64,000 nucleotides of DNA from Brevundimonas sp. NIBR10 (GTDB lineage: Bacteria > Pseudomonadota > Alphaproteobacteria > Caulobacterales > Caulobacteraceae). Position 1 is the first letter of the stretch; each line of letters starts with the position of its first letter. The notes below the pieces were generated by a model, which ran no database searches, was not told the origin of the DNA, and saw only the letters and a list, made by a program, of their open reading frames with translations. Position numbers and translations under genes: made by a program. Where the stretch lies: positions 992,001 to 1,056,000 of the forward strand of contig NZ_CP115464.1 of NCBI RefSeq assembly GCF_027912515.1. Reading direction: 5' to 3'. Below, in pieces: positions 56,833-61,087 of the stretch.

Positions 56833-58781
<1,949 letters not shown>

Positions 58782-58785
<4 letters not shown>

Positions 58786-60224
58786 TTCGGTTCTCGGTCC
58801 TTCGGCGGCACCGCATGGCGCGCGTCGGTTTCATGTCTTGCAGAGGAAAATAGGTCAGACGGCGGCGTTTCGCCATGGAGGGGGCGAAAGAGGTCGGCTT
58901 CATGCGTCGTTTCGCCCATTCCCAGCGCAGACAGCGCCAGATCCAGACGGCGCGGCACAAGCGCACGAACCTCCGCAAGCCTCCATGCGAGAACCGGGCC
59001 GCGATGGTCGTTCCGGATCAGGACAGGCAAGGCGGCGCGGGCTTGGGGAGCGACGGTGCGGATGACGGCGCGGTCGGCGGGGCTGAGCGCGGCGAGGTGC
59101 CCCTGGGCGGCGGTGACGGTCCAGCCGGGTTCAGTGGTGGTGATCTCGTAGCGGCCGTCCCAGACGGCGGGGCGACCGGGGGTCAGGGGTCGGTCGGGGA
59201 CGGGGCGGCGGCGCAGGTCTCCGGGCTCGCGGGTCAGGGTGACGGTTGTGCCGTCGGTGGTGATGCGTGCGCCGGAGAGGCTGGCGGTGAAGGGCTGTCC
59301 GGGGACGAGGCGGGCGGTAAGGGTGGCGATCCTGTCGGGGCGTGGGATGGCGGTGCCGCCGGAGGTGCAGACGATGGCGGCGGAGAGGGTTGGGGGAGAG
59401 GGGTTCTGGAGAGTGACCCCCTCTCCCAGAGGGAGAGGGCTTGAGGCTCGCAGAGCGAAGCGATGCGCCAAGCCGAAAGGGTGAGGGGTTCCGCCCTCAA
59501 CGGTTGGCACCGAACCCCTCACCCTTTCGCGCAAGTCCGATCGCTGACGCTCTCGGGCGCTCAAGCCCTCTCCCGATGGGAGAGGGGTCAGGGTGTGGCG
59601 GGCTCGGCTTCGGCCAAAGCGCAGGTCGGCGTTGGCGGGGTCTTCGATCCAGATGGCCTGTCGTGCGCGAAGACAGGCCCTGAGCGCCTCCCGCCCTTCC
59701 CCCAGCATGGGCCGAAGCAGCATCAGCCCCCGCCCCTCGGGCCAGGACGGGGAGGGCGACCATTCGCGCAGGGTGCCCAGGTTGGACCCTCGCTCTCGCA
59801 TCCAGTCGCCCTCGGCGATGTCGTCGGCGGTGTGGGCCAGCAGGATGACCTTCGCCCCCGCCTCTCGCGCCGCGTCGGCCAGCAGGGCGTGGCGGGCGTG
59901 GCGGGCGGCGGCAGGGAGGCCGGTGGTCGGCTTGTCACCGGTCCAGCGGCGCTCGGTCCAGGCGACGTTCAGGGCCTCGCAGGCGTGGCGGCAGGTCTCG
60001 CTCCAGCCGGAGCTGTCGGGATTCAGGGCGTGGTCGACGGTGACGGCGAGGAGGCGGCGGCCCCGCGCCTTCGCCCAGTCGGCGGCGATGTGCAGCAGGG
60101 CCATGGAGTCGCCGCCGCCGGACAGGGCCAGGACGACAGGGTGCTCGACCGCATGCTGTAGTCGAGCGTCGAGACAAGCGCCGACGCGCACCGCCAGGTC
60201 ATCGTCGCGGCCCCCCACGCTCAT
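58782..60224 (-). CDS. tilS: tRNA(Ile)-lysidine synthetase with in-frame repeat-derived segment
   Basis: 480 residues. The N-terminal PP-loop domain is intact: [13 protein letters not shown] with SGGGDS at 35-40, [21 protein letters not shown], and [20 protein letters not shown] near 193-212. The C-terminal region ([20 protein letters not shown] onwards) also looks normal. Between them, residues ~212-281 are not the expected helical domain. They are the translation of a nested palindromic repeat plus low-complexity flank ([40 protein letters not shown]). The frame stays open throughout. TilS modifies C34 of tRNA-Ile(CAU) and is normally essential. Cloned-assembly error or a second tilS elsewhere cannot be excluded. 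Confidence 0.85.
59415..59589. repeat. Nested palindromic repeat, type D, inside tilS
   Basis: About 175 bp, encoding tilS residues ~212-270. Outer arms start GACCCCCTCTCCCAG and end GATGGGAGAGGGGTC, and continue as GAGAGGGCTTGAG / CTCAAGCCCTCTC with a one-base difference. Inner arms CGAAAGGGTGAGGGGTTC (59474-59491) and GAACCCCTCACCCTTTCG (59512-59529) are a perfect 18-bp match. The C-rich flank on the tilS 3' side (to ~59381) also looks repeat-derived. Confidence 0.85.
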
Positions 60225-60235
60225 GGGGCTCCCGG

Positions 60236-61087
60236 TCAGCGGCAGGCGGCCTGGGTGCGGATCTGGCCGGCGATGGTCTTGAGCTGAGCCGAGGCCGCCG
60301 CCGCATAGCGCCGGTTGAACTCGCCCAGCGCCCCGCAGGCCTGGGTGTCGCGCTCGGTGGCGACGAGGGCGCGGGCCAGTTTCAGGGTGGTCTCGCCGGC
60401 CCAGGCGGTAGTGGGCCAGCCGTTCAGGGCCTGGGCATAGGCGGTGACTGCACCGGCCTGATCGCCCGCCGCACGGCGGATGTCGCCCAGACGCCAGCCG
60501 GCCTCGCGGGCCTGGGGCGTGTCGGGCCAGTTCTCGATGAGCATCTCATAGGCGCGGCCGGCACCGGCCGGATCGGCGGGCATCAACCCTTGTGCGGCGG
60601 CCAGATCGCCCGCCGCATCGCCCGTAGGGGAGCGCAACGCCTCGGCCTCGGCTTCGGCCCGTTCGGCGGCGGCGCGAGCCGCGTCCTCCATGGCCTTGAG
60701 GCGGGTCTCGGCCTGGTTCAGGCGGGTGCGCAGGGCGGCGGTTTCACTCGCGCTTTCGTCGGCGGCGAAACTGGCGCGTTCCAGGTCGCCGTTGATGCGC
60801 TGGACGGTTTCCTCAAGGTCGCCGAGGCGTCGGCCGATGGTCTCGACCTGGCCCATCAGGGTGACGACCTCGGGATCGGACTCGACCAGGACGGGCTGGC
60901 CGACCGCGTTTCTCTGGGTCAGGGCGCGTTCGAGGCGGCGGACGTTGCGGTCCAGGGTGTCGAGCCGACGGACGTCCCACTGGACGGCGGGCAGGGGCTG
61001 GGTCTGGGAGACCGCAATGCCTCCGGCGAGGGCGCAGCCGGCGGCCGTGGCGAGCATCAGGGACAGGGCGAGAGGCTTGATCGTCAT
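60236..61087 (-). CDS. cpoB: Tol-Pal system coordinator CpoB (YbgF)
   Basis: 283 residues from the ATG at 61087. Signal peptide MTIKPLALSLMLATAAGCALA. The N-terminal trimerising coiled coil spans ~45-155 (LDTLDRNVRRLERAL, VETIGRRLGDLEETVQRING). TPR-like repeats follow at ~165-275 (AGRAYEMLIENWPDTPQAREAGWRLGDIRRAAGDQAGAV). CpoB coordinates Tol-Pal constriction with peptidoglycan synthesis at division. tolB and pal lie upstream on the same strand; two membrane genes intervene. Cys near the signal end (GCALA) is not a clear lipobox. Confidence 0.93.
   Translation of the reverse strand: MTIKPLALSLMLATAAGCALAGGIAVSQTQPLPAVQWDVRRLDTLDRNVRRLERALTQRNAVGQPVLVESDPEVVTLMGQVETIGRRLGDLEETVQRINGDLERASFAADESASETAALRTRLNQAETRLKAMEDAARAAAERAEAEAEALRSPTGDAAGDLAAAQGLMPADPAGAGRAYEMLIENWPDTPQAREAGWRLGDIRRAAGDQAGAVTAYAQALNGWPTTAWAGETTLKLARALVATERDTQACGALGEFNRRYAAAASAQLKTIAGQIRTQAACR

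Follow-up and report, generated by a model that had tools for sequence, protein, structure and literature searches.

What is a long nested palindrome doing inside the reading frame of tilS, and by what route could it have come to lie there? The window, by which we mean the whole stretch of 64,000 nucleotides analysed from Brevundimonas sp. NIBR10, carries tilS on its minus strand (58782..60224) as a single open frame encoding a tRNA(Ile)-lysidine synthetase of 480 amino acids. The protein was assigned to TilS through its N-terminal lysidine synthetase domain, which scores above the curated cut-off (TIGR02432, 118.9 bits for a cut-off of 93.6; PF01171, 117.1 bits). This catalytic PP-loop domain (aa 30-214; 59583..60137, minus strand) is intact over the TIGR02432 match and includes the SGGGDS motif (aa 35-40), its final residues reaching into the palindrome. 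The conserved C-terminal part (about aa 283-459; 58848..59378, minus strand) was delimited by alignment with relatives, and residues 270-281 lie outside the repeat and align with the conserved run that leads into it. The initial annotation had judged both parts intact, and the match of the one at 118.9 bits and the alignment of the other bear this out. Directly downstream, ftsH (56833..58785, minus strand) overlaps the end of tilS by 4 bases; it was used both as the neighbour gene for the tree and as a control for inverted repeats.

Between the two parts lies a palindromic element, here called type A, whose extent was set by comparison of copies to 168 bp or 56 codons (59419..59586, minus strand; TilS residues about 213-269). 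Its outer arms (59418..59457 and 59548..59587, 40 nt each) are 83% complementary, and its inner arms (59474..59491 and 59512..59529) pair at 18 of 18 positions, so that the nested structure with outer arms and a perfect 18-bp inner pair, read earlier from the letters alone, is confirmed. The in-frame translation proposed with it also stands, and the size first given (175 bp, residues ~212-270) is refined: the ends are placed best at 59419 and 59586, where the edges CCCTCTCC...GGAGAGGG are common to nearly all of 43 other copies, and matches to a 176-nt element query mostly span bases 5 to 172. The element thus has terminal inverted repeats (CCCTCTCC/GGAGAGGG), and no GANTC occurs within the 176-nt query sequence. 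The predicted RNA fold of the 206-nt segment 59400-59605 reaches -133.8 kcal/mol, compared with a mean of -86.5 in 200 dinucleotide shuffles (z = -9.71), none of which was equally stable. Curated RNA families were searched in 58500-60500 and set aside, all matches being below their gathering scores (the best, MIR8788, at 42.4 bits for 124) and reflecting the hairpin shape.

The part of TilS that this element occupies is a linker. In type I TilS, an alpha-helical linker joins the catalytic and C-terminal domains, according to PMC12514573. This feature is not recognisable in the protein of the window, whose linker contains no long run free of proline and glycine. Other families of the order have a long linker poor in these two residues, whereas it is short and rich in them in Caulobacteraceae without the palindrome. 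The median length of the longest such run is 10 in palindrome-free Brevundimonas (n=69) and 11.5 in members of Caulobacteraceae from other genera (n=26), compared with 23 in other families of the order (n=7 loci). The landmark-to-landmark linker measures 56-58 aa in six named palindrome-free Caulobacter loci, and the 56 residues of the palindrome occupy the place of roughly 25 variable linker residues in palindrome-free relatives. The initial annotation was therefore right that the expected helical segment is unrecognisable, but this is not special to the palindrome, since family members without a palindrome lack the segment as well. Alignment with relatives did reveal palindrome-free genes, as it had been proposed to look for; it did not bear out a replacement of 60-80 helical residues, because in palindrome-free Brevundimonas and Caulobacter, too, the TilS linker is short and offers no long stretch that could form a helix. 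As palindrome-free TilS of Caulobacteraceae also lack a helical linker, the helix appears to have been lost before, or independently of, this palindrome.

Differences at codon positions 1, 2 and 3 amount to 0.24, 0.19 and 0.27 in ten B-type linkers (a second palindrome type, see below) versus 0.09, 0.10 and 0.33 in their catalytic domains, and palindrome-free linkers are likewise relaxed. This pattern suggests that the TilS linker evolves almost neutrally yet keeps its frame. Two linkers, L131 (G116) and L100 (G144), owe their growth to short tandem repeats (EIGPEVEIGPEIEIGP; a 21-residue unit present twice) and not to palindromes; the linker is thus also expanded by a route other than palindromes.

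We then asked how widely the insertion recurs. A TilS match was present in 125 of 131 Brevundimonas genomes; with five TilS places of the genus left out (L225-L229, 5/125), 120 loci were used, 114 of them in a tree built from ftsH and tilS without the linker, while six truncated loci (G071, G003, G083, G047, G102 and G097) stayed outside it. Palindrome-derived linkers were labelled in about 41 of the 114 (A, 10; B, 17; C, 4; remnant R, 10) and the other 73 were labelled as having none. These labels were assigned from text patterns and some are doubtful, which makes the 41/114 approximate and the count of changes rough: on inspection by eye, two of the A labels (G112 and G113) belong to remnants and one R label (G117) to a complete B-like copy, and four linkers labelled none (G084, G140, G094 and G110) could be remnants. 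The palindromes in Brevundimonas tilS form two unrelated groups, and both orientations occur. On the tree, presence and absence changed at least 11 times, and the five labels required 18 changes versus a mean of 39.3 when shuffled, so that the trait, though clustered, has switched many times. An inverted-repeat score of 15 or more was reached by 12 of 114 linkers (23 kb) versus 0 of 120 N-terminal domains (71 kb); the same threshold was reached by 2 of 114 C-terminal parts (58 kb) and by 0 of 114 ftsH genes (212 kb). Inverted repeats with scores of 14-20 were seen in the C-terminal part of tilS in three related genomes, G020, G061 and G122 (region of L122, L128, L135 and L152), where the linker is palindrome-free.

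The N-terminal SGGxDS and C-terminal WDGR motifs share one open frame in 38 of the 41 palindrome-labelled genes. The remaining three comprise a gene starting at a contig end (G048), one in which the N-terminal motif was not found in frame (G043) and one frameshifted at the linker (G067). The latter (L156), with a C-type palindrome in a single-contig genome, reads as two frames that part at the linker, through either an error or a real lesion. As far as the sequence can tell, the segment is translated within tilS.

The frameshift in G067 is one of two observations that would fit a damaged gene, in which TilS activity is lost or lowered by the palindrome and the near absence of AUA codons lets the cell manage. 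The other comes from the window itself: AUA, the codon that needs TilS, is absent from all 2,883 codons of six genes, and its rarity relaxes the need for activity, so that the demand on TilS may be further relaxed. This reading is nevertheless highly improbable in our judgement, since the catalytic and C-terminal parts are conserved, codon-position bias is strong outside the linker, and this genome (G000) has tilS as its sole TilS match and no UAU anticodon, the mark of a tRNA-Ile(UAU), among the 30 of 42 tRNA loci examined. The initial annotation had pointed to a second tilS, or a tRNA-Ile reading AUA without lysidine, as things to look for, and within that scope neither was found. Four CAU tRNAs are present, one of which (L366) resembles tRNA-Ile2 by eye.

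Could the palindrome be a product of assembly? Repeats break assemblies, and the draft contigs of G071, G003, G083, G047 and G102 stop at the TilS linker, which a repeat breaking the assembly there would explain, with the left palindrome arm lying at the contig end in G071, G003 and G083. However, a tilS palindrome is carried by single-contig genomes (among others G000, G076, G119, G135, G063, G068 and G190) and by the isolate B. bacteroides DSM 4726 (L244), and we give an artefact practically no weight. A local misassembly in the window, a concern raised at the outset, is unlikely because the genome consists of one contig of 4,006,378 bases.

The recurrence of the palindrome also bears on whether the hairpin itself is selected, for example because it delays the ribosome during folding of the catalytic domain, or because it protects or attenuates the tilS-ftsH message. 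The RNA hairpin is extremely stable, it stands exactly between two domains and it has been acquired repeatedly, all of which would suit such a role. Yet the 73 of 114 Brevundimonas genes labelled without a palindrome do without it, the arms decay freely within a nearly neutral segment, and no U-run follows the hairpin by eye. A function of this kind is, in our opinion, very unlikely.

The age of the copies and their exchange were approached through the element itself; direct codon-free identity over the whole linker was discarded, being inflated by free end gaps, and BLAST of the element was used instead. The window element shares 89.6% identity with the element in tilS of B. bacteroides (G045), which has the opposite orientation, against 67% for the remainder of tilS; for G076 the values are 88%, again in opposite orientation, and 65%. 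The element in tilS of G119 has the orientation seen in the window, and those of G135 and G017 are so symmetrical that no orientation could be assigned. With non-tilS copies picked for their similarity to the window element, the best match was a non-tilS copy for 9 of 10 tilS copies, the surrounding gene having diverged to 65-70% identity, and for the tilS copies of G045, G076 and G119 it was a non-tilS copy of their own genome. The tenth copy (G103) is a half-deleted remnant matching the tilS copy of its relative G135; G103 and G137 keep one half only, and both have the tilS copy of G135 as their best match. These data fit renewed insertion or recombinational overwriting better than plain descent, as judged from sequence comparison.

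The competing account is one ancestral insertion in Brevundimonas followed by vertical descent, the differences being decay and local inversion and separate events being confined to other genera. Several observations agree with it, or with a single old insertion of types A and B and many losses: types A and B, which occur in separate clades, have junctions at nearly the same codons by eye, all B copies except the B-like G117 fall in a single larger clade, the palindrome label is clustered on the tree with its 11 presence/absence changes, and the remnants in G103 and G137 are clearly vertical. It is difficult to reconcile with tilS elements 88-90% identical in genes that are otherwise 65-67% identical, with both orientations inside one clade, with nine of ten best matches outside tilS, and with type C, an unrelated family in the same genus. 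We therefore consider a single insertion with descent unlikely, while the similar A and B junctions keep one old insertion with later replacement in play.

Palindromes were also found in tilS of other genera, for which the sample of 40 TilS loci from 226 genomes was non-random, being taken from the better-scoring places among the matches listed. Within it, a linker inverted-repeat score of 14 or more was obtained for 12 of 40 loci, namely 11 of 18 in Caulobacter (g31) and one in g27, with 0 of 11 in g15. As shuffles of these linkers reached scores of 8-16, the evidence is stronger for the seven linkers scoring 17 or more than for those at 14-16. Of the palindrome families in tilS other than that of the window, the four searched for in their hosts (C, D, E and F) are all multicopy: with the two strands counted apart, the tilS-borne palindrome has 97 matches in its own genome in G190 (D), 63 in G349 (E), 77 in G163 (F) and 25 in G001 (C). 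By BLAST, A/B, C, E and F have no element sequence in common at E < 0.01, and D overlaps B over 47 nt at 87% and C over 24 nt. In G163 the match of family F with its other copies covers exactly 99 bp (33 codons), which is what a clean insertion should give. Because relatives carry the same or different repeats in the same loop, the TilS linker of these bacteria is a likely site of repeated insertion of mobile DNA.

Outside tilS, the element was followed across genomes and relative to genes. The search for further copies in the genome of the window, also proposed at the outset, yielded 13 loci, tilS included, and element-like matches occur in 123 of 131 Brevundimonas genomes. Among the 13 loci, the tilS copy is the only one shown inside a conserved gene; element-spanning ORFs exist at two of the other 12, both without a Pfam family, and at four loci a named neighbour (gyrA, M16 peptidase, glmU and murG) ends at or just inside the element. 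The murG frame ends within its copy (L220:1501-1523; own genome, 1631876), which supplies the last residues EASLSQGERA and the stop. In several genomes taken together, a stop codon lies at most 6 nt from an edge in 21 of 43 non-tilS type A copies versus 7-9% per side in controls, about three times the control rate, and only 46 of 258 frames are open in these 43 copies, so that an open frame like that kept in tilS would seldom arise by chance. The element thus favours gene ends, to which the tilS copy is an exception. In all, 70 non-tilS copies were examined (12 of the own genome, 38 of type A and 20 of types C, D and F), Pfam covering 10 of 11 element-spanning ORFs in one set and 20 of 22 in another, and one copy sits between two Pfam domains of one ORF. 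This C-family copy in G063 (L338:2-1585, minus strand) is in frame at about aa 211-261 of an Lhr-like helicase, between DEAD (24-200) and Helicase_C (303-399), and rules out a palindrome confined to tilS. With one helicase case among 70 copies, the insertion of palindromes in frame into linkers is a general but infrequent event, of which tilS is the case that recurs in this material.

Taken together, we propose that a multicopy palindromic element was inserted into the permissive linker of a working TilS, is translated there and was then overwritten by other copies, a scenario that we hold to be very probable. The linker of Caulobacteraceae, having lost its helical structure, would only have to connect two parts, so that 50-60 additional residues would be tolerated as long as the frame stays open; the composition of the linker, its relaxed codon pattern and the open frames all point this way. 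In a nearly neutral linker, an insertion that keeps the frame would be tolerated and would persist. Several palindrome families would have reached this linker more than once, given the different families, orientations and hosts. Recombination through the arms with other copies in the genome would probably have overwritten or inverted the resident copies, or new insertions would have taken their place, and the copies would then decay or be partly deleted into ordinary-looking linker; the similarity of the copies, their opposite orientations and the remnants suggest these steps.

A broader proposal, to which we give slightly less than an even chance, is that Caulobacteraceae keep a permanent docking site within an essential gene, the TilS linker, where a resident palindrome is replaced by other families through palindrome-for-palindrome recombination or insertion, and where the enzyme repeatedly gains segments of 30-60 residues of non-coding origin that are kept, trimmed and turned into ordinary linker. 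Since insertions, decayed copies, partial deletions and palindrome-free states coexist in related species, these genes offer a natural experiment on mobile non-coding DNA becoming protein sequence, and also on the homogenisation of palindromes by recombination inside a gene and on the amount of linker that an essential tRNA enzyme tolerates.

The mobility of the element is deduced from copy number alone, as neither target-site duplications nor a RAYT match were detected: the mean flank match was 3.47 versus 3.15 in shuffles (shuffle maximum 3.67), within the range of the shuffles, and the RAYT transposase (PF01797) had 0 matches in G000, the control search finding it in C. vibrioides. REP/BIME elements with RAYT are likewise palindromic, present in many copies and located near gene 3' ends, but the window element is a far longer nested palindrome in a genome without PF01797. 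MITEs (Correia 107-bp, ERIC/RU-1) are small and non-autonomous, and their open frames are in some cases fused to conserved genes; the window element shares terminal inverted repeats with them, but no target-site duplication stood out from the shuffles and no parent transposon was found. The coding palindromes of nematomorph mitochondria are also long inverted repeats in coding genes, sometimes at shared positions; theirs are perfect and both arms encode conserved residues, whereas here a dispersed element lies in an unconserved linker. A description of palindromes in tilS or in Brevundimonas proteins was not found in the literature searched, which comprised main texts, few of them from subscription journals. 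Coding palindromes are reportedly presented as a peculiarity of Rickettsia in the title of Ogata et al. 2002. The CIR of Caulobacter and Brucella are hairpin-forming repeats of Caulobacter and relatives, mostly intergenic, and according to PMC2229807 they have GANTC sites, two arms and stops in all frames and are not found inside genes; the window element differs in being intragenic, with open frames and without GANTC. The closest parallel is with the Rickettsia palindromic elements (RPE), a likeness already drawn in the initial annotation and supported here by a multicopy palindrome translated in frame inside TilS. RPE are described, in PMC10969869, PMC2229807 and PMC6649704, as multicopy palindromes of 100-200 bp lying in frame inside conserved proteins, and these texts suggest that the same might happen elsewhere; the product of an RPE-bearing Rickettsia gmk was active when tested (PMC2229807). 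The window element is also a multicopy palindrome of ~100-200 bp, in frame in a conserved protein gene. We do not file it as an RPE because the host differs, the likeness being one of description. Moreover, RPE are described as spread over many unrelated genes, whereas here several families recur at one linker of one enzyme. Coding palindromes like those of Rickettsia are thus now found in another alphaproteobacterial family, repeatedly at one site.
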